A stretch of DNA of 64,000 nt from Phytohabitans maris (lineage in GTDB: Bacteria > Actinomycetota > Actinomycetes > Mycobacteriales > Micromonosporaceae), in contig NZ_JAVHUY010000051.1 of assembly GCF_031085175.1 (NCBI RefSeq), forward strand, positions 1-64,000. The letters are read 5' to 3'. Under the pieces are notes generated by a model, which was not told where the DNA came from, made no database searches, and saw only the letters and a list, made by a program, of their open reading frames with translations. Of this stretch, positions 2,975-24,643 are shown in pieces. Position 1 is the first letter of the stretch; each line of letters starts with the position of its first letter. The translations under genes were made by a program, and so were the position numbers.

Positions 2975-3493
2975 TCACGCGGCCTGCCGCTCGACCGTTG
3001 CGGAGGGCGGTGCCAACGACGTGTACCGGCCCATGTGGTAGATCAGCGGGGCGGCGCTGTGCGTGTGCTGGCCGTGCAGCGGCTCGGCCAGCACGATCGC
3101 GTGGTCGCCGGCCGTCACGTGTTCGGTGACGCGGCACAGCAGCCAGGCGACCGCTGAGTCCAGCAGCGGTACGCCGTGCGGGCCGTCTCGCCAGCCGGTG
3201 TGCGCGGCGAAGCGGTCGATGCCGCTCGTCGCGAACGTCCTCGCCACCTCGTACTGGTCCTCGCCGAGCAGGTGTACGCCCACGTGCCCGGCGCGTTCCA
3301 GCGTTGGCCAGCTGGACGAGCCACGGTCCAGGCAGAACGAGACCAGCGGCGGACGCAGCGACACCGACGTGAACGACGTGGCGGTGAAGCCGACCGGCGG
3401 CGAGCCGGGCGCCGTGACCACGGTGACGGTGGCGGCCTGGCGGCGCAGCAGGGTGCGGAACGCGTCCGCGTCGAGCCCGTTCACGGCCCTCAC
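2975..3493 (-). CDS. Flavin reductase (NADH:FMN oxidoreductase, DIM6/NTAB type)
   Basis: A 172-residue flavin reductase-like split-barrel protein with family landmarks [20 protein letters not shown], '[15 protein letters not shown]' and '[15 protein letters not shown]'. It should supply reduced FMN to the two LLM monooxygenases of the operon. The GTG start at 3493 overlaps the hydrolase stop (GTGA), a translational coupling that fixes the start. It is the last intact gene of the operon. Function is confident at family level; the partner enzyme is inferred from context. Confidence 0.85.
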
Positions 3494-4227
3494 CAGCTGC
3501 TCGACTCGACGTGGACGACCGGCGTGATCGGTGTACCGCCGCGCAGCGCTTCCAGGAACGCCACCACTTCCGCGGCCACCGAGCGGTGCTGCAGGTCGTT
3601 GAGGACGTCGTGGTGCGCGCCACGGACGACCGAGAGTCGCACCGCGGGCAGCGACTTGACCAGGCGGGCGAGGTCGGCGCGGCTGACCAGCGGGTCCTCG
3701 TCGCCGACCAGCAGCAGATGCGGCTGTTCGGCGGTGCTGCCGTACGCGGCGTCGAGCAGGGCCGCTGGCACGGTCTCGGCGAAAGCTCCACGTTGGAGGA
3801 ACACGTCGCCGGTCAGTACGCCGCGGTGCACCGGGCAGTGGGTGCGGACGTCGAGCTCGTCGTCCCATCCGCCGGTGTGGTGTGCGTCGTAGCCCGGCAG
3901 GCCGGCCAGCACCACCGCGTCGGGCCACCAGGCGGCGCCGGGACAGGGCTTGGCGACGAGGGCGCCCACCGCGGCGGCCGCGGCGTCGGCACCGGCCAGC
4001 GCCAGCGGGCGTACCAGGTCGGGAATCCCGGCGACCGCGTCGGCGAGGTTTTCGGCCAGGTGGGACGGCGCGAAGGGCAGTACGCGTACTCGGTAGGCGT
4101 CCGCGGCGAGGCGGGCGCCGAACCGGCCGTAGCTGGCCGGCGTCTCGCCGCGGCCGGCGACCACCAGCACGGTGCCGCGGACGCGGAGCCCTTCCGGCGC
4201 GGCAAAGTCACCGTAGTGCGAGGTCAT
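3490..4227 (-). CDS. Alpha/beta hydrolase
   Basis: A 245-residue alpha/beta hydrolase (TVLVVAGRGETPASYGRFG near the oxyanion region; 'LLLVGDEDPLVSRADL' carries the acid and 'VRGAHHDVLND' the catalytic histidine). The nucleophile position sits in LALAGADAAAAAVGAL, where the usual G-x-S-x-G serine is not obvious, so it may be an atypical member. ATG at 4227 is chosen over the upstream GTG at 4236 because GGAAG lies 9 nt before it. The gene overlaps the monooxygenase stop by 20 nt. It probably hydrolyses an ester or lactone formed by the oxygenases. Confidence 0.75.
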   Translation of the reverse strand: MTSHYGDFAAPEGLRVRGTVLVVAGRGETPASYGRFGARLAADAYRVRVLPFAPSHLAENLADAVAGIPDLVRPLALAGADAAAAAVGALVAKPCPGAAWWPDAVVLAGLPGYDAHHTGGWDDELDVRTHCPVHRGVLTGDVFLQRGAFAETVPAALLDAAYGSTAEQPHLLLVGDEDPLVSRADLARLVKSLPAVRLSVVRGAHHDVLNDLQHRSVAAEVVAFLEALRGGTPITPVVHVESSSW

Positions 4228-5917
4228 GGGTGGCACCTTCCGTCGAGGTGGGGGTGGGCGCGGAGCGGCCGAGCACGCGGTCGAGCACCGCCGCGGCGGC
4301 GCCGCCGGGCGGCAGCTCCGTGCCGCGCCAGGCCACGTGCTGGTCGGGTCGGACGAGAACGTTGCCGGCGCCGTACACCCGGCGGGCCGCCTCGTCGGTC
4401 AGGTGCACGACGGTGAACGGCAGTCCTCGCTCGCCGGCGATGGAGGCGAAGGCGCGTTCCACCGTGCGGTCGCCGGTGAGTACCAGGAGCGCGAGGTCGT
4501 TGCCGGCCCGGTCGTAGAGGGTGTCGCCCCACGGGTCGACGTAGCCGTCGGGGGCACGGTGGCCTGGGCGCGGGTCGTCCTCGTACCGGTCCGCATCCCA
4601 CGGCGGCTCGCTGGTGAGCTGGTCGTCCTCGTACCAGATGGCGTCCGAGGCGTCGTAGCGCTCGTCGAAGAGCACGCCCGGCGCCTCGCCCCGCTCCCCC
4701 GCCAGCAGCCGGCGGATCTCCTCGCGGCGGGCCTCCGCCTCGGCGCTGGTGTCGGCGTCGTCGGGCACCCCGACGCGGCGGATCTCGGCGAGCCGCTCCC
4801 GGGCCCGGCGGGCCCGGTCGAGGGCGTGGTCGGCGACCCGCCAGTTGTGCGGCCGCCGTTCCTGGTCGTACGAGTCGAGCAGCGCGTCCGCACCGTGTCC
4901 GCTGAGGACGGCGGCTAGCTTCCAGCCGAGGTTGACGACATCGCCGAAGCCCTCGCCCAGGTTGCCGCCCGGCGTGCGCACGTGGGCGGCGTCGCCGGCG
5001 AGCAGCACGCGCCCTTTACGAAACGTCGCCGCGATCCTCGTCGCCTGGTAGAAGGTGGTCGAGGAGGCAAGCTTGAGGTCGAGGTCGAAACCGAACGCGG
5101 CCCGTGCGGTGGCGAGGAACTCGTCTTCGCGCGGGTCGGCGTCCAGCGGGTACGGGCCGGCGTACACCCGCCACTCCCGCGGGCTGATCGCGGCGAGGAA
5201 GCCGGACGCGCGCTGGTTGAAGACGATGTTCGTGCCGCTGGGCGCGGCACCGGTCCGTTCGAAGACGTCGCCGGTGCGCACGACGAGGCGGAACATCTTC
5301 TCCTCCGCGTACCCGCCCTCGCGCGGGATGCCGGTAAGCCGGCGAACGGTGCTGCCGCCGCCATCGGCGCCGATGACGTAGGCCGAGCGGATGACCCGGG
5401 TCTGGCCACCCGAGACCACCGTCGTGAAGACCCGGTCGCCGGTGTCCCGCAACGACTCGACCCGCCACCCGCCGGCCACGGTAACGCCGCGCTCGCCGAG
5501 GTGGTCCAGGAAGACCTGCTGCAGCGCGGTCTGCGGGCGGCGGATGGGCGGGTGGAGCGAGTGCCGGAGCGGGCCGAGCTCGTCGAAGCCGCGCCGCGGC
5601 CGAGGACCGAGGTCGTGCCCGACCAGGGAGGTGGCGAGGCGGATGCCATGGTTCCACTCCGGTGGAAACGTCCACGCCTCCCGCACCCGCTGCAGCACGC
5701 CCCAGCGGCGGAAGTGCTCGACGACGCGGGGCGAGTGGCCCATCGCGCCGGCCCGCACCAGCGTCGCCCGCACCGCCGCGTCGACCACGGCGACGTCCAC
5801 GCCCCGCCCGGCCAGCTCGACCGCCGCGGACAGGCCGACCGGTCCGCCGCCGACGACCAGCACCGCGACTTCCTCGGGCGGCGCGGCCACCGGAAACTCC
5901 ACGTCGTGGGGGCTCAT
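4208..5917 (-). CDS. FAD-dependent aromatic monooxygenase (PHBH/MhpA-like)
   Basis: A 569-residue class A flavoprotein monooxygenase. The FAD Rossmann motif GGGPVG lies at residues 23-28, the DG motif is YVIGADGGGSTVRRL, and the GD motif is VLLAGDAAHVRTPGGNLGEG, followed by the usual 'NLGWKLAAVL'. A C-terminal thioredoxin-like extension (about 440-560) is typical of MhpA/RdmE relatives. The start codon ATG overlaps the stop of the upstream LLM gene (ATGA). It should hydroxylate an aromatic or heteroaromatic intermediate with NAD(P)H and O2. The substrate is unknown. Confidence 0.88.
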   Translation of the reverse strand: MSPHDVEFPVAAPPEEVAVLVVGGGPVGLSAAVELAGRGVDVAVVDAAVRATLVRAGAMGHSPRVVEHFRRWGVLQRVREAWTFPPEWNHGIRLATSLVGHDLGPRPRRGFDELGPLRHSLHPPIRRPQTALQQVFLDHLGERGVTVAGGWRVESLRDTGDRVFTTVVSGGQTRVIRSAYVIGADGGGSTVRRLTGIPREGGYAEEKMFRLVVRTGDVFERTGAAPSGTNIVFNQRASGFLAAISPREWRVYAGPYPLDADPREDEFLATARAAFGFDLDLKLASSTTFYQATRIAATFRKGRVLLAGDAAHVRTPGGNLGEGFGDVVNLGWKLAAVLSGHGADALLDSYDQERRPHNWRVADHALDRARRARERLAEIRRVGVPDDADTSAEAEARREEIRRLLAGERGEAPGVLFDERYDASDAIWYEDDQLTSEPPWDADRYEDDPRPGHRAPDGYVDPWGDTLYDRAGNDLALLVLTGDRTVERAFASIAGERGLPFTVVHLTDEAARRVYGAGNVLVRPDQHVAWRGTELPPGGAAAAVLDRVLGRSAPTPTSTEGATHDLALR

Positions 5918-7248
5918 CGCCGTGCCTCCGCCATTGTCCAGCGGTTTCGCGGTACGGGCAGGCCGAGGTTGCCGCGCAGCGTGTCCGCCTCGTACTCGGT
6001 GCGGAACAGCCCGCGCGCCTGGAGCAGCGGCACCACGTCCGCGACGAACCGGTCCAGGTCCTCGTGGGTGCGGAAGCCCAGGTTGAGGCCGTCGAACGCG
6101 CCGGCGGCGAACCAGCTCGCGATGGTGTCCGCCACCGTGCGTGGGTCGCCGGTGAACGGGGACGGCTGGTAGTCGGTGAACGCGAGGACCGTCTCGCGCA
6201 GCGTCCAGCCCTCCTCGCGGGCCCGCCGGACGATCTCGGTGCCGCGGGTGCGGCCGCTGCGTTCGGCGAGCGCGGCCACGTCCGGGAACGGCGCGTCGAG
6301 GTCGTGCTGGGAGAAGTCGTAGGCGCCGAAGGAGCGGCCGAACTGGGCGAGCTTGCGCGGGAAGTCGTTGTCCGCGTCGAAGATCTCGCGGGACAGGCGG
6401 TGCGCCTCGGCGTCGGTGCCGGCGACCACCGGCTGGGCGCCGAGGAAGATGAGGACGTGCTCGGGGTCGCGGCCGATCGCGGCGGTGCGGCGTTTGATGT
6501 CGGCGTAGTAGTCGCGCGCCGATCGCAGCGACCCGCCCGGCGCGTAGATGCCCTCGGCGACGTGTGCCGCCAGGTTGCGCCCCTCCTCGGAGACGCCGGC
6601 CTGGAAGATCACCGGCTGGCCCTGCGGCGAGCGGGAGATGTTGAGCGGCCCGGCGACCCGGAAGTGCTCGCCCACGTGGTTGAGCGGGTGCAGCTTGGCC
6701 GGGTCGAGGAAGACGTCCCGCTCCACGTCGGCAGGAAACGCGTCGTCCTCATAGGAGTCCCACAGTCCACGTACGACGGTCACGTGCTCCAGTGCCCGGC
6801 CGTACCGGGTGGCGTAGTCGAGGTGCTCGTCGAGGCCGTAGTTGCCGGAGGTGCCGGAGTCGAGGCTGGTGACCACGTTCCAGCCGGCGCGGCCGCGGCT
6901 GATGTGGTCGAGCGAGGCGAAGCGGCGTGCCACGTTGAACGGCGAGTTGTACGTCGAGCTGAGCGTGCCGACCAGCCCGATGTGTCGAGTGTGGACCGCC
7001 ACGGCCGACAGCAGTGTCAGCGGTTCGAGCCGGTTGAGGTAGTGCGGCGGGTAGGTGGCGTCGATGAACTGGCTGTCCACGATGAACAGCGCGTCGAACT
7101 TCGCGTGCTCGGCCGCTTTCGACTGCGCGATGTACCAGTCGATGTCGATGCTGGCGTTCTTCGGGACGCGCGGGTCCTTCCACAGGCTGTGCTGGCCGGG
7201 TCCCCCGACGCCGTACGCCCGCAGCGCGAGCCGGATCTGGCGGGTCAT
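5914..7248 (-). CDS. LLM-class FMN-dependent monooxygenase (NtaA/SnaA/DszA family), copy 1
   Basis: A 444-residue bacterial luciferase-like monooxygenase with landmarks of the NtaA/SnaA/DszA/SoxA branch: AYGVGGPGQHSLWKDP, YLNRLEPLTLLSAVAV, GRAGWNVVTS, HPLNHVGEHF and SRSPQGQPVIFQAG, ending RGNLGLPVP. These enzymes use FMNH2 from a separate reductase to cleave C-S or C-N bonds or make Baeyer-Villiger products. ATG at 7248 is set by the ATGA overlap with the upstream ATPase stop. It is clearly a paralogue of the first gene of the operon (12172-13518). Confidence 0.9.
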   Translation of the reverse strand: MTRQIRLALRAYGVGGPGQHSLWKDPRVPKNASIDIDWYIAQSKAAEHAKFDALFIVDSQFIDATYPPHYLNRLEPLTLLSAVAVHTRHIGLVGTLSSTYNSPFNVARRFASLDHISRGRAGWNVVTSLDSGTSGNYGLDEHLDYATRYGRALEHVTVVRGLWDSYEDDAFPADVERDVFLDPAKLHPLNHVGEHFRVAGPLNISRSPQGQPVIFQAGVSEEGRNLAAHVAEGIYAPGGSLRSARDYYADIKRRTAAIGRDPEHVLIFLGAQPVVAGTDAEAHRLSREIFDADNDFPRKLAQFGRSFGAYDFSQHDLDAPFPDVAALAERSGRTRGTEIVRRAREEGWTLRETVLAFTDYQPSPFTGDPRTVADTIASWFAAGAFDGLNLGFRTHEDLDRFVADVVPLLQARGLFRTEYEADTLRGNLGLPVPRNRWTMAEARR

Positions 7249-8063
7249 GCTGGTCCTCCGATGGTCTGCAGCAACGCGCGAAGCTCTTCGCGCTCGGCGC
7301 GGTCGGCGGCGGCCGAGCGAAGGGTCGGCGCGGAGCCGACGAGCAGCCGGGTGTACGGGTGCTCCGCGGCGTTGACGATCGTGCGGGCGGGTCCGGTCTC
7401 GACGATTTCGCCCTGGTAGAGCACGGCGATGCGGTCGGCGATCCCGGCGACCGAGCCGAGGTCGTGCGAGATGAACAGCAGCGCGGTCCCGGAGGCGCGC
7501 AGCTGTTTGAAGAACTCCAGCGCGCGGACCCGGGTCGCCGCGTCGAGCGCGCTCACCGGCTCGTCGAGGATGACCACCCGGGGCTCGGTGATCAGTGCGC
7601 GGGCGACCGTAACGCGCTGGCGCTGGCCGCCGGAGAGCTCGCCGGGCAGCCGGGACAGCAGCGCCTCGTCGAGGTGCACCCGGGCGGCGAGCTCGCGGGC
7701 CCGTTCGGCCGCCGCGCGCCGGGGCCGGCCCTGGATCAGCAGCGGCTCCACGATGGACTCCTCGACGGTGAGGTCGGGGTCGAGGCTGCGCAGCGGGTCC
7801 TGGAAGACGTACTGCACGAGGCCGCGGCGGCGCAGGGCCCGCCACCGCCGGCCGCGGTAGCCGGTCACGTCCTCGCCTGCGACGGTGACCCGGCCGGCGG
7901 AGGGGCGGACCAGGCCGACGACGGCTCGGGCCAGTGTGGACTTGCCCGACCCGGTCTCGCCGATGAGGCCGACGGTCTCGCCGGCCGCGACCGAGAGTGA
8001 GGCGCCGCGCAGGGCGTGGGTGCGTCCGTAGTGGACGTCCAGGTTGGACACTTCAAGCGACAT
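7245..8063 (-). CDS. Dpp/Opp-type ABC importer ATPase (second ATPase of operon B)
   Basis: A 272-residue ABC ATPase: Walker A GETGSGKST at about 35-43, Q-loop 'YVFQDPLRSLDP', signature ELSGGQRQR, Walker B VVILDEPVSALD, H-loop FISHDL. It has the DppF-like 'HPYTRLL' segment, but the C-terminal cysteine-rich oligopeptide-transporter domain seen in the other three systems of this window is missing. It pairs with the ATPase encoded just upstream, whose stop it overlaps by 11 nt. Confidence 0.9.
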   Translation of the reverse strand: MSLEVSNLDVHYGRTHALRGASLSVAAGETVGLIGETGSGKSTLARAVVGLVRPSAGRVTVAGEDVTGYRGRRWRALRRRGLVQYVFQDPLRSLDPDLTVEESIVEPLLIQGRPRRAAAERARELAARVHLDEALLSRLPGELSGGQRQRVTVARALITEPRVVILDEPVSALDAATRVRALEFFKQLRASGTALLFISHDLGSVAGIADRIAVLYQGEIVETGPARTIVNAAEHPYTRLLVGSAPTLRSAAADRAEREELRALLQTIGGPA

Positions 8064-8874
8064 GGTCCAGCTCCTTCTCCTCCGTGAACCGGTCCAGGCC
8101 GTACTGCTCGTGCTCGGCGATGAGCAGCTTCGTGTACTCGTGCCGCGGCTCGTAGAGGATCCGCTCCACCGGTCCCTGCTCGACGGTCTCGCCGGCCCGC
8201 AGCACCAGGACCTCGTCGCAGAGCTGGGCGACGACGGCGAGGTCGTGCGAGACCACGACGAGCGCCAGGCCGGTCCGCTCGCGCAGGTCGGCGAGCAGGT
8301 CGAGGATCTCCGCCTGCACGGTCACGTCCAGGGCGGTCGTGGCCTCGTCGGCGATGAGCACCTTCGGGTCGGCGGCGATCGCGGCGGCGATGAGGACCCG
8401 CTGGAGCATGCCGCCGGACAGCTCGTGCGGATACTGCCGGTAGACCCGCTCCGGGTCACGCAGCCGCACCGCGCCGAGCAGCTCGATCGCCCGCTGTCTG
8501 GCGTCCCGCCGGCCGAGTCCCTTCTTGACTCGCACGACCTCGGCGACCTGCGTGCCGACCTTGAGCGACGGGTTGAGGTACGAGGCCGGGTCCTGGAACA
8601 CAGCGCCGATCGTGGTGCCACGCACCGCGGTCCACTCCTTCTGGGTGAGCGTGGAGACGTCGCGGCCCTCGATCTCGATCTGGCCGCCGGAGACCGCGAA
8701 GTGCTCCGGCAGGATGCCCAGCACCGCCTGGCAGGTGAGGGTCTTGCCGCTGCCGGACTCCCCCACGATGCCGACCGCCTTTCCGGGCGTCAGCGCGAAC
8801 GAGACGCCGTGCACGAGATCCCGCCGGCCGACGCCGTCGTGGATCCGTACGTCACGCAGTGACAGCAGAGCCAT
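8053..8874 (-). CDS. Dpp/Opp-type ABC importer ATPase (first ATPase of operon B)
   Basis: A 273-residue DppD-like ATPase with Walker A GESGSGKT (about 38-45), Q-loop 'AVFQDPASYLNP', signature LSGGMLQR, Walker B VLIADEATTALD and H-loop VVSHDL. Like its partner it is short and lacks the C-terminal CRFAPRC-type domain. It overlaps the end of the DppC-like permease by 23 nt. Together with the neighbouring permeases and lipoprotein it forms a complete five-component importer. Confidence 0.9.
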   Translation of the reverse strand: MALLSLRDVRIHDGVGRRDLVHGVSFALTPGKAVGIVGESGSGKTLTCQAVLGILPEHFAVSGGQIEIEGRDVSTLTQKEWTAVRGTTIGAVFQDPASYLNPSLKVGTQVAEVVRVKKGLGRRDARQRAIELLGAVRLRDPERVYRQYPHELSGGMLQRVLIAAAIAADPKVLIADEATTALDVTVQAEILDLLADLRERTGLALVVVSHDLAVVAQLCDEVLVLRAGETVEQGPVERILYEPRHEYTKLLIAEHEQYGLDRFTEEKELDHVA

Positions 8875-9715
8875 CGGCCACCTTCCTCGTGTTGAGCAGT
8901 GCCCGCCCGGCCTGGCCGGTGACGTCGCGGATGGCGTCGGCGAGCAGGTTGCAGGCCCAGACCGTGGCCATGATGAGCGCGGTCGGCGCCAGCGGCGCCC
9001 ACGGCTGGAAGCTCAGGTAGCCCAGCTCGGAGGCGAGCACGCCGCCCCAGGTGGGCGCCGGTGGCTGCACGCCGATGCCGAGGAAGGTCAGGCTGGACAC
9101 GATGACGAAGCCGACGCCGGTGGTGTTGGCCAGCGCCACCGCGATGGGTGGGAGCACCTTGACCCACACGTGCTTGCGCACCACCCAGCCGACTGAGGCG
9201 CCGGCGACGATCGCCGCCTCGACGTACTGGGAGCGGGCCACCGACAGCGTGGCGGCCCGGGCCACCCGGTAGAACAGCGGGGAGACCATGATGCCGACCA
9301 CGAACATCGCCTGCGGGATGCCGTTGCCGAGCAGAGCGGTGACCGCGACGGCGAAGACGAGGAACGGCAGCGCGACGAGCGTGTCCGCCAGCCGCAGTGT
9401 CACCCACTCGAAGGCACGTCCGAAGTAGACGGACAGGATGCCCGGCACCACGCCGACGACGAGCGCGATGAGCGCCACCTGCACGGCGCCCAGTACGCTC
9501 ACCCGGGAGCCGTCGAGCAGCCGGCTGAGCACGTCGCGGCCGAGGTAGTCGGTGCCGAGCAGGTGCGCGCTCGACGGGTTGGCGAGGATGTCGGTGGTGC
9601 CTTCGAGCGGGTCCTGCGGCGCCAGGATCGGGCCGAAGACCGCCAGGAACGCGATGAAGCCGAGGATGCCGATGGCGATGCGGCCGCTGGTGAGCCTCAG
9701 TACGCGGCGGATCAC
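8852..9715 (-). CDS. Dpp/Opp-type ABC permease, DppC-like (operon B)
   Basis: A 287-residue inner-membrane permease with an N-terminal membrane segment, the DppC hallmark HLLGTDYLGRDVLSRLL, and the EAA loop QYVEAAIVAGASVGWVVRKH before the last membrane spans. GTG at 9715 follows the DppB stop by 1 nt and is preceded by GAGAGGAG. It forms the translocation pore with the DppB-like protein. Confidence 0.9.
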   Translation of the reverse strand: MIRRVLRLTSGRIAIGILGFIAFLAVFGPILAPQDPLEGTTDILANPSSAHLLGTDYLGRDVLSRLLDGSRVSVLGAVQVALIALVVGVVPGILSVYFGRAFEWVTLRLADTLVALPFLVFAVAVTALLGNGIPQAMFVVGIMVSPLFYRVARAATLSVARSQYVEAAIVAGASVGWVVRKHVWVKVLPPIAVALANTTGVGFVIVSSLTFLGIGVQPPAPTWGGVLASELGYLSFQPWAPLAPTALIMATVWACNLLADAIRDVTGQAGRALLNTRKVADGSAVTA

Positions 9716-9716
9716 G

Positions 9717-10673
9717 TCACACTCCTCTCGCGGACGCTGGCGCCACCCGGGCGAGGACGAGGTTGACCAGCAGGTTGAATACCACGACCAGCACGATCGA
9801 GACGACCAGCACGCCCTGCACGGCGGGTACGTCGCCGCGCTGTGCCGAGTTCGCCGCGAACTGCCCGAAGCCCGGCATCCCGAATATCGCCTCGGTGACG
9901 ACGGCGCCACCGAGCAGGTTGGGAAACTTGAGGCCGAGGACGGCCAGCGCCGGCCCGACGCCGTTGCGCAGCACGTGCCGGAAGAAGACCCGGCGCGGGC
10001 TGAGGCCGCGCACGACCGCGCCGGTCACGTAGTTCTCCCGGTACGCGGCGACGAGCCCGGCCCGTAGCTGCCGGGCCACGTCGGAGACGGTGTCGAAGCT
10101 GAGCGCGATCGCCGGCAGCGTGATGTGCGCGAGCCACACGCCGACCCCCCGGTCCGCCGGTGCGTACCCGGCGGAGGGGAACCACCCGAGCCCGACCGCG
10201 AAGACGCCGACGAGCACGATGCCGACGACGAACGACGGCATGACCGAGATGAACGTCGTGAACCCCGTGATGGCGCGGTCCACCCAGGTGGTCCGGCGCA
10301 GCGCCGCGAGGACACCGAAGCCGAACCCGAACACCACGCCGATCACCAGCGCCAGCCCGGCCACCGAGAGGCTAATGGCCGCACCCTCTACCAGCAGCCG
10401 GGAGATGTCCGCACCGTTGTACCAGCTCTTGCCCAGGTCGCCGGAGAGCATGTCGCCGAACCAGTCGAAGTACTGGGTCAGGAACGGTCGGTCCAGCCCC
10501 CACTGGTGCTCGATCTGCGCGATCGCCTCCGGCGTGGCCGACTCGCCCAGCTGCAGGCTCGCCGGGCTCAGCCCGCTCAGCGCCCGTAGCGCGAACGTCA
10601 CGAACGTGGCGACCAGGAAGACCGGTACGAAGATCGCGACCGAGCGGGCGAGGATGGAGAGCGCCTTTCTCAC
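9717..10673 (-). CDS. Dpp/Opp-type ABC permease, DppB-like (operon B)
   Basis: A 318-residue permease with six predicted membrane segments. It has the DppB N-terminal pattern 'ATPEAIAQIEHQWGLDRPF', the periplasmic LGKSWYNG region, and the EAA loop YVTGAVVRGLSPRRVFFRHV, then TEAIFGMPGFG. The GTG start overlaps the lipoprotein stop as GTGA. A much longer in-frame extension upstream is only antisense/alternate-frame sequence of the binding-protein gene and is not part of this protein. Confidence 0.9.
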   Translation of the reverse strand: MRKALSILARSVAIFVPVFLVATFVTFALRALSGLSPASLQLGESATPEAIAQIEHQWGLDRPFLTQYFDWFGDMLSGDLGKSWYNGADISRLLVEGAAISLSVAGLALVIGVVFGFGFGVLAALRRTTWVDRAITGFTTFISVMPSFVVGIVLVGVFAVGLGWFPSAGYAPADRGVGVWLAHITLPAIALSFDTVSDVARQLRAGLVAAYRENYVTGAVVRGLSPRRVFFRHVLRNGVGPALAVLGLKFPNLLGGAVVTEAIFGMPGFGQFAANSAQRGDVPAVQGVLVVSIVLVVVFNLLVNLVLARVAPASARGV

Positions 10674-12175
10674 GGCTCGACCTTCAGGCCGGTCCAGTGG
10701 ATCTGGCCTGGGATCGGAGTTATCGCGGAGACTTTCCTGCTCTTCACGAAGATGTTCGGCTGCGAGTACGTGAACACCAGCGCCCGGCTCTCCAGCCCGG
10801 CGCGGGTGGCGGCCTGCAGGTTCTTCGCATAGTCCGGCGAGTCCAGCGGCGTGCCGCGGGCCAGCGAGACCGCCTTCTCGAAACCCTCCGGCTGGTACGG
10901 CGTGCTGAGGTTGAGCGGGCCGTTCGGTCCGAAATGGGCGGTCAGCGTCTGCACGGGCGACTCGCGCCCGGTCGTACCGTACAGCGACAGCGCCAGGTCC
11001 TTGGCGAAGAACGGCTTCTCCCAGTTCGGGTCCACCTTGATGGTGATGTCGAAGCCGACCGCGTTCAGCTGCGACTGGACGATCTCCGAGGCGGTCGCGT
11101 ACGTCTGCCCGGCGATGACCAGGTCGAGCTTGAGCTGACCGGGCGCGTACCCGGCCTCGGCGAGCAGCGACCTGGCCTTCTCCGGGTCGTACGGGTACCT
11201 GTTGGCGGACCGCTGGTCGTAGGCGAGGTACTCGGGCGGGAACGGCTGGTCGGTCGCCTTCCCGTACCCGAAGGTGACCTTGTCGACGAACTCCTGGCGG
11301 TTCGTCGCGTAGCGCACGGCGTCGACCACCTTGGGGTTGGTGAACGGCGCCTTGTTGACGTTGATGCTGATGTTCGAGGCGTTGAAGCCGGGCTGGAACA
11401 CCACGTCGAGCCCGGCCGCCTCGGCCGCCTTGACCTGGCTGGCGGTGAGGTTCGCGAAGTCGTACACGCCGGTCTTGAGGCCGGAGACGACGGTGGCCGC
11501 GTCCGGCGCGGTCTGGAGCTCGACCCGGTCGATGTGGATGTTCGCGGCGTCCCAGTAGTCCGGGTTCTTCCTGAGGTAGACGTGCGAGCCGGGCACGAGC
11601 TCGGTGACGACGAACGGGCCGGCGCCGACCGGCGACTGGTCCAGCTTGGCCGGGTCCTGGGCCGCCTTCGGGCTGGTGATCTGCGCGACCCGCTCGCCGA
11701 GCAGCAGCGGGATCTGGTGGTCCACCTGGGTCAGCTGGATGACCACATCGAGGTCGCCCTGCGCGGTCACCGACTCGATCGAAGTGAGGTCGCCGTCGAG
11801 GGCGGAGTTCTCCTGCGTCTTGGCCCGTTCCAGGTAGGCCTTGACGGCGGCGGCGTTCAGCGGTTCGCCGTCCGAAAACCTCAGGCCCGGCCGCAGGTGG
11901 AACGTCACCTGGTCGCCCTTGTCGTTGTAGTCCCAGCTCTGCGCGAGGTTCGGCACCGCCTTGCCGTGCTCGTCGATCTCGGTGAGCGACGCGTACGCGA
12001 GCGAGAGGATGCGGAACTGCGCGCCGCTGCCGCTGACCACCGGGTCCCAGTGCGCGGGCAGCGTGACCGCCCACCGCAGGGTGGACTCGCCGGCGGCACC
12101 GGCACCACCGTCACCCGCGCAGGCGGAAAGTCCGAGAACGGCGGCGGCGAGGACGGCCAACGCTTTCTGTCTCAT
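10670..12175 (-). CDS. Extracellular solute-binding lipoprotein, family 5 (operon B)
   Basis: A 501-residue SBP_bac_5 protein. A short signal peptide ends in the lipobox LSAC with Cys19, so it is a Sec-exported lipoprotein. Family motifs include FHLRPGLRFSDGEPLNA and 'VGAGPFVVTELVPGSHVYLR'. It should capture the operon's substrate outside the cell and hand it to the permeases. The ATG overlaps the stop of the upstream LLM gene (ATGA), so binding protein and monooxygenase are translationally coupled. Confidence 0.92.
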   Translation of the reverse strand: MRQKALAVLAAAVLGLSACAGDGGAGAAGESTLRWAVTLPAHWDPVVSGSGAQFRILSLAYASLTEIDEHGKAVPNLAQSWDYNDKGDQVTFHLRPGLRFSDGEPLNAAAVKAYLERAKTQENSALDGDLTSIESVTAQGDLDVVIQLTQVDHQIPLLLGERVAQITSPKAAQDPAKLDQSPVGAGPFVVTELVPGSHVYLRKNPDYWDAANIHIDRVELQTAPDAATVVSGLKTGVYDFANLTASQVKAAEAAGLDVVFQPGFNASNISINVNKAPFTNPKVVDAVRYATNRQEFVDKVTFGYGKATDQPFPPEYLAYDQRSANRYPYDPEKARSLLAEAGYAPGQLKLDLVIAGQTYATASEIVQSQLNAVGFDITIKVDPNWEKPFFAKDLALSLYGTTGRESPVQTLTAHFGPNGPLNLSTPYQPEGFEKAVSLARGTPLDSPDYAKNLQAATRAGLESRALVFTYSQPNIFVKSRKVSAITPIPGQIHWTGLKVEP

Positions 12176-13518
12176 CGGGACGCTCCGATCAGGCGCTTGG
12201 CGGTGTGCGCGTTCTCCGGGACGGGCAGGCCGAGGTTGCCGCGGAGGGTGGATGCCTCGTACTCGCGGCGCACCACCCCGCGCTCGCGCAGGATCGGCAG
12301 CACGCCGTCGGTGAAGCGGGCGAACTCGCTGGGCGCGTTGACGGTGACGTTGACGCCGTCGAACGCGCCGGCCTCGAACCACCGCTGGATCTCGTTCGCC
12401 ACCGTGAGCGGCGAGCCGACGAACGGCGACCGCCACGAGTCGAGCGTGTGCTGGACCACCTGGCGCAGCGTGTACCCGTTGTCGCGGGCCAGCTTCTTTA
12501 TCCGCTCGGCCTGGGTGCGGAAGCTGCGGTCGCCGGCGTCGCCGACGTCCGGGAACGGCGCGTCGAGGTCGTACCGGGTGAAGTCGTGCCACCCGAACGG
12601 GCGGCCGAGCTCTCGCAGCGCTCGGTCGAAGTCCTTGCTGCCGCGCAGCGCGCGCTCCTTGTCCCGCGCCTTCGCGTCGGTGTCCGCGATGACCAGGCTG
12701 ATCCCGGGAACGATGAGCACGTTCTCCGGGTCGCGCCCCTTGGCCGCCGCGCGGGCCCGGATGTCGTTCGCGAACGCCTGGCCCTGCTCGATCGTCTGCG
12801 CGTGCGTGAAGATCGCCTCGGCGATGCTCGCGCCAAGGTCGCGCCCCTCGTCGGAGTCGCCGGCCTGGAAGATGACCGGCCGCCCCTGCGGTGAGCGCTG
12901 GATGTTGAGCGGCCCGACGACGGAGAAGTGCTCGCCGACGTGGTTGAGCGGGTGCTGCTTGGAGGGATCGAAGAAGACACCGCGCTCCTTGTCGCGCGGG
13001 AAGGCGTCGTCCTCGTAGGAGTCCCACAGCCCCTGCACGACCAGCACGTGCTCCAGCGCGCGGCCGTACCGGGTGGCGTAGTCGTAATGCTCGGCCCGGC
13101 CGTAGTTGCCCGCCGTCCCGCCGTCGCCGGTGGCCACGACGTTCCAGCCGGCGCGGCCGCCGCTGATCAGGTCCAGCGAGGCCAGGCGACGGGCCACGTT
13201 GAACGGGTCGTTGTACGACGTGGTGAGCGTGCCGACCAGCCCGATGTGCGTGGTGTGCACGGCGACGGCGGAGAGCAGCGTCAGCGGCTCGAGCCGGTTG
13301 AGGTAGTGATTCGGCGAGTTCGGCGTAATGAACTGGCTGTCCACGATGAAGACGTGGTCGAACTTCGCGGCCTCGGCCTCCTGGGCGCGGGCGATGTACC
13401 AGCGGATGTCCACGCTCGCGTCGCCGGGTATCTCCGGGTCGAGCCAGGTGTTGTGCTGGCCGGGCCCGCCCACCCCGAGGAGGACGGCGCCCAGCTTGAG
13501 TTGTCTACGGTTGGTCAC
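12172..13518 (-). CDS. LLM-class FMN-dependent monooxygenase (NtaA/SnaA/DszA family), copy 2, first gene of operon
   Basis: A 448-residue paralogue of the 5914-7248 enzyme with the same landmarks (LLGVGGPGQHNTWLDPEIPG, YLNRLEPLTLLSAVAV, GGRAGWNVVATGDGG, HPLNHVGEHFSVVGPLNIQR, STLRGNLGLPVP). It leads the ten-gene operon and follows a 26-codon leader peptide at 13593-13673. In this enzyme branch, known substrates include sulfones, nitrilotriacetate and streptogramin precursors. The leader and the two copies point to oxidation of an organosulfur compound, but this is inference. Confidence 0.9.
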   Translation of the reverse strand: MTNRRQLKLGAVLLGVGGPGQHNTWLDPEIPGDASVDIRWYIARAQEAEAAKFDHVFIVDSQFITPNSPNHYLNRLEPLTLLSAVAVHTTHIGLVGTLTTSYNDPFNVARRLASLDLISGGRAGWNVVATGDGGTAGNYGRAEHYDYATRYGRALEHVLVVQGLWDSYEDDAFPRDKERGVFFDPSKQHPLNHVGEHFSVVGPLNIQRSPQGRPVIFQAGDSDEGRDLGASIAEAIFTHAQTIEQGQAFANDIRARAAAKGRDPENVLIVPGISLVIADTDAKARDKERALRGSKDFDRALRELGRPFGWHDFTRYDLDAPFPDVGDAGDRSFRTQAERIKKLARDNGYTLRQVVQHTLDSWRSPFVGSPLTVANEIQRWFEAGAFDGVNVTVNAPSEFARFTDGVLPILRERGVVRREYEASTLRGNLGLPVPENAHTAKRLIGASR

Positions 13519-13592
13519 GGCAACGCCGCCCTTCGTGATCGACGAGGGTACGCAAGAGTCCCGCGCTCAGGCGGGGAACGAGGCGGAAGCCG

Positions 13593-13673
13593 TCAGCGAC
13601 AGAGGGTCGCGGCGATGCGGCCTTGGTCGAGCCAGCGGCGGCTGGTTAGCGTCGCTGCGGGGCGCTGGCTCAT
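13593..13673 (-). CDS. Putative sulfur-type leader peptide, 26 aa
   Basis: A small open frame starts at ATG 13673 and ends TGA 13593-13595, 74 nt before the first LLM gene and on the same strand. Its C-terminal part, TSRRWLDQGRIAATLCR, fits the recurrent actinobacterial leader pattern (S/T)RR..D..R.A...CR. Such peptides are found before cysteine, sulfate and other sulfur-assimilation genes, where a Cys codon near the end (here Cys25) is thought to sense cysteinyl-tRNA supply. This supports a link of the whole operon to sulfur supply. I recognise the pattern; translation is not proven. Confidence 0.7.
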   Translation of the reverse strand: MSQRPAATLTSRRWLDQGRIAATLCR

Positions 13674-13729
13674 GTACCCGAGTATGTGTGGCCGTCCCGC
13701 GCGGCGTCCAACGAAAGATCGTGATGAGC

Positions 13730-13752
13730 ATCCATTACCACAGGTGATGGAT
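13730..13752. promoter_or_regulatory. LysR-type operator (T-N11-A)
   Basis: A perfect inverted repeat ATCCAT - 11 bases - ATGGAT, which places the canonical T-N11-A of LysR-family boxes exactly at the inner edges. It lies 20 bases before the lysR start codon and upstream of the leader peptide, the usual place for an autoregulatory and divergent-activation site. Confidence 0.7.
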
Positions 13753-13772: not shown

Positions 13773-14624
13773 ATGACCAGGAATCTCGGCATCGTTCCGC
13801 TCCGGAGCTTCGTGGCCGTCGCGGACTGCGGCGGTTTCCAGCGCGCGGCCACCTCCCTGCACCTGACCCAGGGGGCGGTGAGCCAGCATGTGCGCCGGCT
13901 GGAGGAGGCGCTGGGCCGCACGCTCGTCGAGCGGCAGGGGCGCGGCTCCCGGTTCACCGCCGACGGCGAGGCACTCCTGGGCCACGCACGGCGGATCCTC
14001 GGCCTGCACGACGAGACCCTGCGCGAGTTCGGCGTCGAGCCGGGCCGCACGCTGGTCATCGGGTCGACCGAGCACGCCGCCGCCCAGCTGCTGCCCGAGC
14101 TGGCCGCCTCGCTCAGCGACACGTTCGCGCACTGCCGGGTCCGGTTCCGGATCGACCGTGGCGCTCAGCTGCGTGCCCGGCTGGCCGACGGCCGCATCGA
14201 CCTCGCGCTGCTGCTCGGCCCGCCCGAGGAGCCCGACGCGCGCACCGTCGGCGAGCTGGAGCTGACCTGGTACTCGGCGCCCCACTGGACGCCGCCCGAG
14301 CACGGCGAGCCCCTCCCGCTCGTGGCGTTCGACGCGCCCTGCGCGCTACGCACCCTGGCCCTGGAGACCCTCGCCGAGCACGGCGTGCCGGCCGAGGTGG
14401 GTTGCGAGGCCGCGCACCTCGCGGGCGTGCAGGCGGCCGTGCGCGCCGGCCTCGGCATCGCCCTGATGGCCACGCTCGGCAAGAGCCCCGAGGGCCTGAT
14501 CGCCCGCGACGACCTCCCCTCCGCCAAGCCGCTGCCGCTGTCCGTGACCCCGCGCCGGGGCCTCCCCGCCGATCTCGCGTCCGGCGCCGCCGCCTCGTTG
14601 ACCCGCCTGCTAGGAGCCGCCTGA
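13773..14624 (+). CDS. LysR-family transcriptional regulator
   Basis: A 283-residue LTTR. The N-terminal winged HTH is clear (LRSFVAVADCGGFQRAATSL, 'HLTQGAVSQHVRRLEEALG', residues about 8-60), followed by a substrate-binding domain ('IGSTEHAAAQLLPELAASL', 'DGRIDLALLLGPPEE', 'VQAAVRAGLGIALM'). It is divergent from the LLM operon and has a perfect LTTR box in its promoter, so it most likely controls that operon. It overlaps the cupin gene (TGATG), so the two are co-translated. Confidence 0.9.
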   Translation: MTRNLGIVPLRSFVAVADCGGFQRAATSLHLTQGAVSQHVRRLEEALGRTLVERQGRGSRFTADGEALLGHARRILGLHDETLREFGVEPGRTLVIGSTEHAAAQLLPELAASLSDTFAHCRVRFRIDRGAQLRARLADGRIDLALLLGPPEEPDARTVGELELTWYSAPHWTPPEHGEPLPLVAFDAPCALRTLALETLAEHGVPAEVGCEAAHLAGVQAAVRAGLGIALMATLGKSPEGLIARDDLPSAKPLPLSVTPRRGLPADLASGAAASLTRLLGAA

Positions 14625-20942: not shown

Positions 20943-21893
20943 GTGGCCACCGTGCTGAGGTTCGTGGGTCGCCGCCTCCTCCAGACCGTGCCGGTCGTCG
21001 TGATCATGAGCTTCGTCGTGTTCGCCGTGACGAGCCTGCTCCCCGGCGACGCCGCCCGTTCAGTGGCGGGGGAGGGCGCCTCGCAGGAGCAGGTTGACCG
21101 GATCCGCGAGCAGCTCGGCCTCGACGACAACGTCTTCGTCCGGTACGTCAGCTGGTGCGGCCGGCTTCTCCGCGGCGACCTGGGCACGTCGCTGACCAGC
21201 GGGCAGAGCGTGCGGGAGATGCTGGCCATCGCGGTGCCGGTGACCGCGGAGCTGGCCCTGCTCGCCATCCTCGTCGCCCTGCTGATCGGGCTCCCGGCCG
21301 GTGCGCTGACCGCGACCCGCCGTGCCGGCTGGATCGACACCGCGGTCAGCGGGCTCGCCCTGGTCGGCGTCTCGATGCCCTGGTTCTGGCTCGGCTTGCT
21401 GCTGGTTCTCGGCCTGTCACTGGGGCTGCCCTGGTTCCCAGCCAGCGGCTACACGGCGTTCACGACCGACCCGGTCGACAACCTGACCCACATGGTGCTG
21501 CCCACGCTCACTGTCGCGGTCGGCCTGCTCGCCCTGGTACTGCGGCAGACCCGAGCCGCGCTGCTCAACGTGATGTCGGAGGACTACATGCGTACCGCGA
21601 CAGCCAAAGGGCTGAGCCGCGGCCGGGTGGTGGTGCGCCATGGGCTGCGCAACGCCCTGATGCCGGTCGTCACCGTCGTGGGCCTACAGGCGGGCGCGCT
21701 GCTCGGCGGCGCCGTCATCACCGAGACCGTGTTCGGCCTGCCCGGGCTGGGCCGCATGCTGGTCAACGGCATCTTTTCCCGGGACTACCCGGTGATCCAG
21801 GGCGCCGTCCTGGTCATCGTGCTCGCCGTCCTGGCGGTGAACGTGGTGACCGACGTGCTCTACGCCGCCCTCGATCCGCGGGTGCAGCTGTGA
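20943..21893 (+). CDS. Dpp/Opp-type ABC permease, DppB-like (operon D)
   Basis: A 316-residue permease starting at GTG 20943. It has the N-terminal membrane span (TVPVVVIMSFVVFAVTSLLP), 'GEGASQEQVDRIREQLGLDD', the LRGDLGTSL motif, the EAA loop YMRTATAKGLSRGRVVVRHG and 'TETVFGLPGLGRMLVNG'. It is the first gene of an operon running to 28314. Confidence 0.92.
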   Translation: MATVLRFVGRRLLQTVPVVVIMSFVVFAVTSLLPGDAARSVAGEGASQEQVDRIREQLGLDDNVFVRYVSWCGRLLRGDLGTSLTSGQSVREMLAIAVPVTAELALLAILVALLIGLPAGALTATRRAGWIDTAVSGLALVGVSMPWFWLGLLLVLGLSLGLPWFPASGYTAFTTDPVDNLTHMVLPTLTVAVGLLALVLRQTRAALLNVMSEDYMRTATAKGLSRGRVVVRHGLRNALMPVVTVVGLQAGALLGGAVITETVFGLPGLGRMLVNGIFSRDYPVIQGAVLVIVLAVLAVNVVTDVLYAALDPRVQL

Positions 21894-22014
21894 GCGCGCG
21901 AGTTGGCGCGGCGGCGTCTGGACGGAGCCGGCCCGCCGACGAAGTCGGGATTTCGGGCCGGCGGAGGAAGACGTCGCCTTCAGCGCCGCACGAGCAAGCG
22001 AACCAGGAGGCACT

Positions 22015-22980
22015 GTGAGCGGCCGCGGGTCCACCGGGGCGGACAGCTATCTGCGGCTGATCGGGCGCCGGTTCGGCAGCGCACCGCTCGCGGTCGCCGG
22101 GGCCGTGGTGCTCGCGCTGCTGGTCGTGGTCGCCGTCTTCGCTCCGCTGATCGCGCCGTACAGCCCGGACGCGGTCGACGTCGGCCAGGTGCTCAAGCCG
22201 CCGAGCGGTGCGCACCTGTTCGGCACCGACGAGCTCGGCCGCGACATCCTCAGCCGCTCCCTGTACGGCGCCCGCGTCTCGCTGCTCGTCGTCGGTGCCG
22301 CCCTGACCGTCGCCCTGTTGGTCGGCGCGGCTGTCGGTGTCCTCAGTGGATACCTCGGCGGCTGGTTCGACGCGCTCGTCATGCGGATCGCCGACGCGCT
22401 GCTGGCGTTCCCGATTTTGGTGCTGGCGCTGGCCATCGTGGCCGCCCTAGGGCCGAACATCCGCAACGCGGCGATCGCCATCGCCGTGGTCAACATCCCC
22501 GGCTTCGCCCGCCTGGCCCGCGGCGAGGTGCTGGCGCTGCGGCACCGGGAGTTCATCGAGGCGGCCCGGGCGGCGGGCAGCTCGACGTTCAGCATCCTGG
22601 TCAACCACGTGTCCCGCAGCATCGCCGGCACCATGCTGGTGTACGGCTCGCTGCGCGCCTCGGTCGGCATCATCACCGAGTCCGCCCTGTCGTACCTGGG
22701 CCTGGGCGCCCAGCCGCCGACCCCGACCTGGGGCGGGATGGTCGCCACCGGCTCGCAGTACATCACCGAGGCCTGGTGGCCCAGCTTCTTCCCCGGCCTG
22801 GCCATCTTCCTGGCGGTGTTCAGCCTCAACGCCGTGGGGGACGGGCTCAACGACGCTCTCAACGTACGCATCGGTGCCGTCGTCCGGCGGCGGCGCAGGT
22901 GGGGCCGGCTGTTTTCCCCGCCCGCACGCCCCGGCGCCGCGCCTGTCGCGGAGTCCTCCGCTCCATCCGTCCGTCCATAG
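22015..22980 (+). CDS. Dpp/Opp-type ABC permease, DppC-like (operon D)
   Basis: A 321-residue permease with the DppC hallmark HLFGTDELGRDILSRSLYGA and the EAA loop EFIEAARAAGSSTFSILVNH, then 'ESALSYLGLGAQPPTPTWGG'. GTG 22015 has CAGGAGG 5 bases upstream. It has a longer Pro/Ala/Arg-rich cytoplasmic C-terminus (about 30 residues) than usual. Confidence 0.92.
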   Translation: MSGRGSTGADSYLRLIGRRFGSAPLAVAGAVVLALLVVVAVFAPLIAPYSPDAVDVGQVLKPPSGAHLFGTDELGRDILSRSLYGARVSLLVVGAALTVALLVGAAVGVLSGYLGGWFDALVMRIADALLAFPILVLALAIVAALGPNIRNAAIAIAVVNIPGFARLARGEVLALRHREFIEAARAAGSSTFSILVNHVSRSIAGTMLVYGSLRASVGIITESALSYLGLGAQPPTPTWGGMVATGSQYITEAWWPSFFPGLAIFLAVFSLNAVGDGLNDALNVRIGAVVRRRRRWGRLFSPPARPGAAPVAESSAPSVRP

Positions 22981-22988
22981 GAGACGAT

Positions 22989-24566
22989 ATGAACCGTCCG
23001 TTTCGCCGCGGCCGGCGCGCGCTCGCGCTCGGCCTGACGGCCTTCGTCATGCTTGCCGGCGCCTGCTCGTCCACATCGGACAGCGGCGGGCACGCCGGCG
23101 GCGGCGCGCCGGTGCGCGGCGGCACGCTCACCGTCGGGCTGCAGGTCGCGCCGAAGAGCCTCGACCCGCTCTTCGGAAACGCGCCCGACCTCGACCGCAA
23201 TGTTTTCAACGCCTTCTACCAGACGCTGGTGCGGATCGAGCCAGGCGGCAAGGTCGCCGACGTGCTGGCCAGCCGGCACACCGTCTCCGCCGACGGCCGC
23301 ACGTACACGTTCACGCTTCGGCAGGGGGTGACGTTCGGCGACGGCACGCCGTTCGACGCGGACGCGGTCGTGTTCAACCTGAAGCGGGTCACCGACCCGG
23401 CGAACAACTCGCCCCGCGCGGTCGACCTCGTGGCGATCGACACCGTCACCGCTACCGACCCCCAGACGGTCACCGTCACGCTGAAGCAGCCCACCGCCGC
23501 CTTCCTGGCCGGGCTCGCCGGCGAGGCGGGCATGATGGTCTCCCCGACCGCGGCCGCCAAGGGCGCCGACGCGCTGCAGCGCGACCCGGTCGGCACCGGT
23601 CCGTTCGTCTTCGACGGATTCCTCAACGGCGCGGACATCAAGGCCAAGCGCAACCCGGCGTACTGGGAGAAGACCGACGACGGCGGCCAGCTGCCGTACT
23701 TCGACGCGATCACGTTCCGGGTCATCCCGGACGCGAACGTCAAGATGACCGACCTCAAGACCGGCGGGGTACAGCTGATCGACACCGTACCGATCCGCCA
23801 GGCGGCGGCGCTCGCGTCGGACGACGGGTACCAGCTCATTGAGGGGCGCGGCGTGGAGAAGTGGATGGCGTTCAACACCACCCGGGCGCCCTTCGACGAC
23901 GTGCGCGTACGCCAGGCCGTCGCGTACGCGATCGACCGGAACGCGATCTCCTCGGCGATCACCAACGGGCAGGGCAGCGTCCCGGCGACGCTCTGCACCA
24001 AGACCGAGATCTGCTACGACGACGCGGTCAAGCCGACCGCGACCGACGCGGCGAAGGCCCGCTCGCTGCTGGCCGAGGCCGGCCGGAGCAGCCTCACCGT
24101 CACCGTCAGCGTGATCAACCGGGAGCCGGACAACACGATCGCCCAGCTGGTACAGGCCCAGCTCAAGGAGGTCGGCGTGACGGTGAACATCCAGACCTAC
24201 GAGCGCGAGAAGTGGATCAACTCGGTGCTCGCCCACGACTTCGACCTCGCCACGCTTCAGATCGGCGTACCGCGGCTCGACCCGTCGCTGGCGTTCAACG
24301 GCAGCTTCCTGGCGGAGTCGGCGCAGAACTGGGCAGGGGTGAACGACCCCGACCTGTTCGCCGCGGTGGGTGCGGCCAACGCCGGCGCCGACCCGACCGA
24401 GCGGCGGGCCGACTTCGCCCGCGCCCAGCAGATCCTGCTGGAGAAGGCGTACTACGTCTTCTTCTACTGGAACACCGACCCGGCCGGGGCGAGCGCCCGG
24501 CTGCACGGGGTTACCGGCGACCAGTCGGGTGCCTGGAACCTCACCCGCGCCTGGCTCACGAGCTGA
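22989..24566 (+). CDS. Extracellular solute-binding lipoprotein, family 5 (operon D)
   Basis: A 525-residue SBP_bac_5 protein. The signal peptide with a basic N-region (MNRPFRRGRRALALG) ends at lipobox LAGAC, Cys26. Family motifs: VGLQVAPKSLDPLFGNAPDL, TFTLRQGVTFGDGTPFDADA, DPVGTGPFVFDGF. ATG 22989 follows the DppC stop by 8 bases, with AGGAGA in between. A strong hairpin at 24577-24610 follows the gene. Confidence 0.93.
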   Translation: MNRPFRRGRRALALGLTAFVMLAGACSSTSDSGGHAGGGAPVRGGTLTVGLQVAPKSLDPLFGNAPDLDRNVFNAFYQTLVRIEPGGKVADVLASRHTVSADGRTYTFTLRQGVTFGDGTPFDADAVVFNLKRVTDPANNSPRAVDLVAIDTVTATDPQTVTVTLKQPTAAFLAGLAGEAGMMVSPTAAAKGADALQRDPVGTGPFVFDGFLNGADIKAKRNPAYWEKTDDGGQLPYFDAITFRVIPDANVKMTDLKTGGVQLIDTVPIRQAAALASDDGYQLIEGRGVEKWMAFNTTRAPFDDVRVRQAVAYAIDRNAISSAITNGQGSVPATLCTKTEICYDDAVKPTATDAAKARSLLAEAGRSSLTVTVSVINREPDNTIAQLVQAQLKEVGVTVNIQTYEREKWINSVLAHDFDLATLQIGVPRLDPSLAFNGSFLAESAQNWAGVNDPDLFAAVGAANAGADPTERRADFARAQQILLEKAYYVFFYWNTDPAGASARLHGVTGDQSGAWNLTRAWLTS

Positions 24567-24576
24567 CCTGGTACGC

Positions 24577-24610
24577 GGGCGCCGGCCGGTCCTCCTTCCG
24601 GCCGGCGCCC
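24577..24610 (+). terminator. 13-bp hairpin after the binding-protein gene (intra-operon)
   Basis: GGGCGCCGGCCGG and its exact inverted copy CCGGCCGGCGCCC flank the loop TCCTCCTT. There is no T-run behind it, and it sits between the binding protein and ATPase genes. It more likely protects the 3' end of a binding-protein-rich transcript, or gives partial termination, than acts as a full terminator. Confidence 0.65.
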
Positions 24611-24643
24611 CGGCCCCTTGAACGAACCGAGGAGTTTGTCCGG

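Follow-up and report, generated by a model that had tools for sequence, protein, structure and literature searches.

The first gene of a monooxygenase operon in Phytohabitans maris is preceded by a 26-codon open reading frame. We consider it likely that this frame is a leaderless cysteine leader, in which the ribosome reads cysteine at codon 25 (UGU) and thereby sets the expression of the operon. The frame lies in a stretch of 64,000 nucleotides, here called the window, and comparison with related sequences supports the frame itself, its likely start, its conservation, its resemblance to a known family and a constraint on the sensor codon. An earlier note on this DNA had proposed cysteine-responsive attenuation. 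Its interpretation is supported as essentially right; the attenuation itself, which we favour as a control of Rho-type termination by stalling at UGU, is a step that we infer. The features around the frame are the following:

13593..13673, minus strand: leader peptide ORF of 26 codons plus TGA, translated as MSQRPAATLTSRRWLDQGRIAATLCR
13599..13601, minus strand: sensor Cys25 codon TGT, the codon in 142 of the 143 leaders read that have a Cys at Asp+9
13519..13592, minus strand: 74-nt spacer between the stop of the leader and the start of the gene, with 29 C and 23 G (mildly C-rich)
13681..13686, minus strand: predicted -10 element CATACT, ending 7 nt before the leader ATG, with a predicted leaderless start
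13706..13711, minus strand: predicted -35 element TTGGAC, 18-19 nt from the -10 element in the same 20 of 27 leaders
13721..13738, no strand assigned: imperfect dyad GTAATG-N6-CATCAC, candidate site of the divergent LysR protein
13773..14624, plus strand: divergent LysR-family regulator gene

The 26-residue frame is real. Translation and coordinates confirmed that it is on the right strand, with 74 nt between its stop and the next same-strand gene start, a GTG at 13518. The terminal Cys codon described in the earlier note holds in so far as a Cys is found near the stop; Cys25 is however the penultimate residue, and Arg26, which comes last, varies and is not conserved. This is the only Cys of the window leader, whereas mycobacterial polycysteine ORFs are recognised by a run of Cys codons.

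The start of the leader is indicated by its promoter. In 20 of the 27 leaders of this operon, an in-frame ATG follows CAnnCT or CCnnCT by exactly 7 nt, with TTGGAC 18-19 nt further upstream. The same spacing occurred in 0 of 2350 shuffled upstream sequences, the motif having been derived from the sequences on which the spacing was counted. The arrangement is missing in six Pseudonocardia leaders and in one other (L029). Because a gap of 7 nt has no space for a ribosome-binding site, an mRNA starting at codon 1 of the leader is predicted, and the leader mRNA is thus probably leaderless, judging from the sequence. A sigma-70 scan did not detect the proposed promoter, because its -10 element CATACT and its 19-nt spacer exceed the limits of the scan. 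The frame had also been placed behind a LysR box; indeed, both the divergent LysR-family gene (13773-14624) and the candidate dyad (13721-13738) are present. A dyad resembling GTGATG-N6-CATCAC was found just upstream in 12 of the 27 leader loci with a loose pattern, and the divergent LysR protein probably also controls the same promoter.

The leader is followed by an operon of at least ten genes, tightly spaced or overlapping on the same strand, which was followed as far as 2975:

12172..13518, minus strand: first operon gene, an FMN-dependent luciferase-like monooxygenase of the NtaA/DmoA family (TIGR03860, 484 bits, cut-off 279.7)
10670..12166 (start approximate), minus strand: ABC substrate-binding protein of the Opp/Nik type (best NCBIfam matches NikA/GsiB-like, below cut-offs)
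9717-10670 and 8852-9745, minus strand: two Opp/Nik-type ABC permeases (NCBIfam matches below cut-offs)
8053-8874 and 7245-8063, minus strand: two Opp/Nik-type ABC ATPases (NCBIfam matches below cut-offs)
5914..7260, minus strand: second NtaA/DmoA-family monooxygenase (TIGR03860, 472 bits, cut-off 279.7)
4208-5917, minus strand: FAD-dependent hydroxylase-like protein
3490-4236, minus strand: protein without an NCBIfam match at 1e-10
2975-3490, minus strand: flavin reductase-like protein

TIGR03860, the family of both monooxygenases, takes its name from NtaA and DmoA, and DmoA is a dimethylsulfide monooxygenase. The view that the operon is not otherwise recognisable as sulfur-related therefore did not stand, as both monooxygenases score far over the TIGR03860 (NtaA/DmoA) cut-off. 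The leader adds an operon that encodes two monooxygenases and an importer of the Opp type to those tied to cysteine supply. This indicates an organosulfur substrate, and scavenging of such a compound is the most likely role of the operon. Elsewhere in the window (20943-25654, plus strand), frames read as Opp-type permeases, a substrate-binding protein and an ATPase; neither of the two leader searches of the genome, which score part of the candidates, listed a match there.

Absence of the frame from relatives was one of the outcomes that the earlier note had named as refuting its reading; the frame is conserved. As relatives we took the best 80 of 497 stretches encoding the monooxygenase, and the upstream DNA was read for all 80. 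The first leaders encountered served to build an 18-residue core profile, which was searched with before a strict pattern was applied. With the strict core pattern, 26 of the 80 relatives had a sense-strand leader ahead of the orthologous gene, and a relaxed pattern added two (L024 and L033, from Nakamurella and a Pseudonocardiales MAG), both without Arg at D+3, to give 28 of 80. As controls, the antisense strand of these 700-nt upstream regions and the DNA behind the gene start (673,138 nt over both strands) contained no match to the relaxed pattern. Leaders precede the orthologous gene in Phytohabitans, Asanoa, Catellatospora, Frankia, Actinokineospora, Amycolatopsis, Kineosporia and Pseudonocardia. 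L9, D16, R19 and C25 are invariant across 25 aligned leaders (24 located before the orthologous gene, plus the antisense one from the L025 locus), an invariance that is partly by choice, since the search patterns require some of these residues. A chance open frame could be argued from the fact that the ORF is part of a longer stretch without stops in a GC-rich genome, but the conservation, the promoter spacing seen in none of the shuffles and the zero control matches in 673,138 nt leave this explanation a negligible probability.

The frame might also be a relic that no longer matters, with the LysR protein alone running the operon. This would agree with the 52 of 80 relatives in which no leader was found (two of these have only ~330 nt of upstream DNA), which include six Actinoplanes-type loci whose monooxygenase is 82-85% identical, and with an orphan leader in the same genome that has no co-directional gene. 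Against it, the leader of the window is identical to that of Phytohabitans suffuscus at 77 of 81 nt, with 4 that differ, and the conserved residues and the TGT codon have been kept. We therefore regard a relic as very unlikely. The spacer behind the leader is 74 nt long in the window and 117 nt in P. suffuscus, with 53 of 74 positions identical in a gapped alignment, and the window monooxygenase is 90% and 91% identical to its homologues in P. suffuscus and Asanoa iriomotensis, respectively. In the Pseudonocardia locus L025, a second leader core, LLTRRRVVDLGRTGSAGC, with Cys codon TGT, was observed on the opposite strand (1717-1770, minus strand). It lies ~1.2 kb upstream of the monooxygenase gene and outside the 700-nt stretches.

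Cysteine leaders are a known kind of element in actinobacteria. The NCBIfam model NF042933 (leader_Ms5788A) aligned with residues 8-26 of the window peptide at 15.2 bits (E 0.013, cut-off 45). The model NF042934 (cis_reg_atten, 'putative leader peptide', cut-off 27 bits) left the peptide unmatched at E up to 1, and a search of its own genome with this model at E up to 10 did not list the window leader. Two of seven other leaders tested, L032 and L038 of Pseudonocardia, which sit at the orthologous place, reached the NF042934 cut-off with 27.4 and 28.1 bits. One of the remaining five scored 24.5 and one 14.4, and three of this operon's Trp type were unmatched (E up to 10). Conversely, when a profile was made solely from the 20 Trp-type rows, 76 of 91 independent NF042934-type leaders outscored all shuffled controls. 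The pattern of actinobacterial cysteine leaders that the earlier note had seen in the frame was indeed matched at its broad core, namely R, (V/I/L)D, R, and a Cys at D+9 near the stop. With NF042934 leaders, those of this operon have in common the core L-x-x-R-x-x-(V/I/L)-D-x-x-R-x5-C and the kinds of downstream gene; the window peptide differs in Trp14, at a position where Ala or His is common. NF042933 (leader_Ms5788A) and NF042936 (leader_Ms4527A), which bear mycobacterial locus names, are Cys-rich, whereas the window peptide has one Cys and no run. On this comparison, the window peptide probably belongs to the actinobacterial cysteine leaders (NF042934, NF042933) as a divergent member that scores below their cut-offs. 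What is new is the link of this operon to a leader, a Trp-type subgroup missed by the curated models in the members tested, and a near-fixed UGU.

Profile searches, reading of stretches and a Pfam scan identified five further leaders elsewhere in the same genome:

before a rhodanese-domain gene that by eye resembles sseA
before a gene for a sulfite/nitrite reductase-family protein, followed by one for a PAPS-reductase-family protein
before a DUF4395 gene, with a gene for a thioredoxin-domain protein just upstream
at C78, before a weak oligo_HPY match; a luciferase-like monooxygenase, by eye similar to ssuD, follows ~1.9 kb further on, together with a flavin reductase
at C89:55790 (L123 1291-1353), plus strand: orphan leader MPSTVFLTSRRAIDFGRVASGLCP, with TGT and no close co-directional gene behind it

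An alignment of the leaders of this operon picked up three of these other leaders (E 5e-7 to 1.4e-5). The sulfite reductase/PAPS reductase and rhodanese loci bear out the claim that such leaders occur upstream of sulfur-assimilation genes. At the C78 locus a LysR gene diverges, much as in the window. Beside the orphan leader, a luciferase-like gene and a flavin reductase gene are found on the opposite strand.

We further surveyed the class in 79 genomes including that of P. maris, of which 62 had a match at E up to 0.001 and 55 one over the cut-off. Among the matches listed, 111 from a longer list were read. They include 91 leaders over the cut-off, from 45 genomes, of which 29 came directly from the search and 62 from further stretches; the further stretches were picked by hand, strong matches first. 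Two leaders share one stretch (L215). First downstream genes were called mechanically for 87 of the 91 leaders, with some starts surely wrong, and four leaders gave none. For these 87 genes, again among the matches listed, Pfam gave Rhodanese (19), NIR_SIR (16), DUF4395 (7), Bac_luciferase (6), PALP (5), NMT1 (5), PAPS_reduct (4), cysteine dioxygenase (4), SDF transporters (3), SBP_bac_5 (2) and others, with 25 of 31 families listed. Four leaders of the form RLWRRVHMDL(V/L)RYAGCVCRPSC (L153, L160, L161 and L162) each stand before a cysteine dioxygenase gene, as assigned by Pfam in 4 of 4 cases.

The codon for the Cys at Asp+9 is TGT in 142 of the 143 leaders read that have this Cys. These comprise 27/27 leaders of this operon, 2/2 from the relaxed pattern, 4/4 further leaders of the P. 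maris genome in which this position is Cys, 90/90 class leaders with the Cys and 18/19 weaker ones (both among the matches listed), and the antisense leader of L025. The sole exception is a poly-Cys leader (L228), with TGC at Asp+9 and TGT at Asp+7. Left out of the 143 are one of the 91 class leaders, which has TAG instead of Cys at Asp+9, one of the 20 weak matches (L229), which is not leader-like, and the C78 leader, whose Cys (TGT) is at Asp+7. In nearby genes, TGT makes up 9-12% of Cys codons (20/164 in the relatives, 22/188 in the own genome and 23/246 in downstream genes). The other Cys codons of the 91 leaders, among the matches listed, are TGT in 22/102 cases, and in 3/36 at Asp+2. If leaders are treated as independent, chance would give 27/27 in this operon with a probability of 2e-25; for the 143 no p-value is given, owing to the relatedness of the leaders. 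The searches used amino-acid patterns or profiles throughout and would equally have picked up TGC variants.

Other wobble positions are not fixed, and the amino-acid-determining codon positions are conserved (121 leaders); choosing leaders by amino-acid patterns favours conservation of amino acids over that of wobble bases. RNA pairing was considered as a reason for the fixed UGU, and none was found. The best duplex that the codon region forms with the next 150 nt was no better than with shuffled RNA (n = 121; the shuffled duplex was weaker in 52%). The wobble base has a mean paired probability of 0.57 in local folds and pairs more often with A (56) than with G (25), its partner positions scatter, and its change to C shifts the folding energy by -0.08 kcal/mol on average.

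The simplest reading of the fixed UGU is a constraint on decoding. Since UGU and UGC encode the same peptide, this near-invariant single base could serve to tell codon decoding from peptide sensing. The distinction bears on a further explanation, in which the leader works mainly as a TnaC-like nascent-chain arrest peptide whose signal is not uncharged tRNA but free cysteine or some other sulfur metabolite. Residues 6 to 16 before the Cys are conserved with free wobble across the 121 leaders and residues after it are variable, as an arrest peptide would have it. However, this conservation is partly a product of selection by amino-acid pattern, and a pure arrest peptide leaves the choice of UGU over UGC unexplained. 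We consider such a peptide, acting in this way, rather unlikely. The conserved amino acids before the Cys nevertheless suggest that the nascent chain takes part; these residues (L, R, V/L-D, R) may work from within the exit tunnel to make a pause at the UGU codon effective.

A sequence pattern gave six places in the genome, one of which is a tRNA-Cys with anticodon GCA; of other tRNA-Cys patterns, one had no match and one a single match. A pattern search of the genome found no tRNA with anticodon ACA, which is not proof of its absence. tRNA-Cys(GCA) reads UGU by G-U wobble, and tRNA-Cys has a sulfur-containing anticodon-loop modification. Decoding of UGU might thus be slow when tRNA-Cys is uncharged or when this modification is missing. 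We tentatively propose that the leaders sense sulfur by codon, with a fixed UGU read through G-U wobble and a nascent peptide that sensitises the ribosome, so that all sulfur operons are switched together. If true, codon sensing would switch a whole set of sulfur operons at once, the window operon included. The accessible part of the literature covered by our search, which did not extend to Canestrari 2020, contains no mention of a fixed UGU in such leaders.

We also asked how stalling could be passed on to the operon. A search for an intrinsic terminator behind the window leader gave no terminator-like site and a fold z-score of -0.04, and thus a classical attenuator with a terminator hairpin and U run is not supported. 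Rfam had no relevant family for this RNA, its single match being a lncRNA far below the gathering score. The RNA behind the leaders is skewed in composition. Over 121 leaders, the C-minus-G skew is 0.03 in the last 30 nt ahead of the leader stop and climbs to 0.24 in the first 30 nt behind it, and C exceeds G in the 60 nt after the stop in 96% of the 121 leaders and in 58% of 166 control upstream stretches (p 7e-19), the controls coming from the window and the 80 loci and most of the 121 leaders from other genomes. For this operon, the skew in the stretch from -90 to -30 is 0.15 with a leader and 0.11 without (p 0.33, not significant). The C-rich RNA after the leader stop could resemble a Rho entry site that is exposed by the departing ribosome.

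According to the mechanism that we favour, a ribosome supplied with ample Cys-tRNA would finish the leader and leave, the C-rich RNA behind the stop would be exposed, and Rho would end transcription. With Cys-tRNA in short supply, the ribosome would wait at UGU and cover the RNA around the stop, and the operon would be made. This proposed logic is like that of E. coli tnaC, where a Rho entry site is covered by a ribosome that has stalled at the leader end; the peptide and the signal differ, and the Rho step is an inferred one here. The 4 cysteine dioxygenases among the 87 downstream genes speak against a switch that is induced by shortage, as they are no simple fit. Cysteine dioxygenase degrades cysteine and its induction by shortage would be odd, so that the polarity may be reversed at those leaders.

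Alternatively, stalling could act on translation: the first gene's ribosome-binding site would be sequestered by the leader RNA and freed once a ribosome stalls at the Cys. For the nearest relatives that have been studied, this model was reportedly put forward (Canestrari 2020), and in the window 4 of 8 paired positions of the ribosome site pair inside the leader, in the part that a stalled ribosome would mask. However, at least four such pairs were found in only 5 of the 27 leaders of this operon. The mean unpaired fraction of the ribosome site is 0.40 for the full RNA, 0.43 for the stalled state and 0.38 with a shuffled leader, and the site is more open in the stalled than in the full state in 15 of 27 leaders. 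Moreover, the leader-to-gene spacers vary widely in length (47-364 nt). We thus view translational attenuation as doubtful for this operon, to about the same degree as an arrest peptide.

Rho-type control set by reading of the UGU codon, our preferred reading, can be compared with several described systems. Mycobacterial polycysteine leaderless ORFs, for which Canestrari and colleagues are said to have put forward a translational attenuation model in 2020, have a Cys near the stop, as does the window leader, whose predicted leaderless start and likely sulfur-gene context would be further points in common. The window leader differs from them in its single Cys, and no conserved structure masking the ribosome site was found for it. 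The relevant part of PMC13236596 cites the Canestrari work as translation attenuation. Leader peptides of cys operons were predicted by Seliverstov et al. 2005 (PMC1262725), who, in the sections consulted, suggested Rho, noted that Rho motifs were not conserved and called the mode of regulation unknown. As described there, those leaders resemble the window leader in having no obvious terminator but differ in their runs of Cys codons and in the genes that follow. Attenuators of Streptomyces lividans TK24 (PMC8079986) include, in the portion consulted, leaderless leader peptides, several of them without a clear terminator, as here; the table of eight leaders given in that portion names none as cysteine-dependent and has none with the core of the window peptide. 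The uORFC-8-2 before cysS of Rhodobacterales (PMC8632094) is a uORF with Cys codons like that of the window, but according to the excerpt consulted UGC is dominant in it and an intrinsic terminator lies behind it. One more frame of the class survey, at G063:C2:85366 (L174), is leader-like with a TAG stop at the position of the sensor Cys, and lies ~0.5 kb from a second, oppositely oriented leader.
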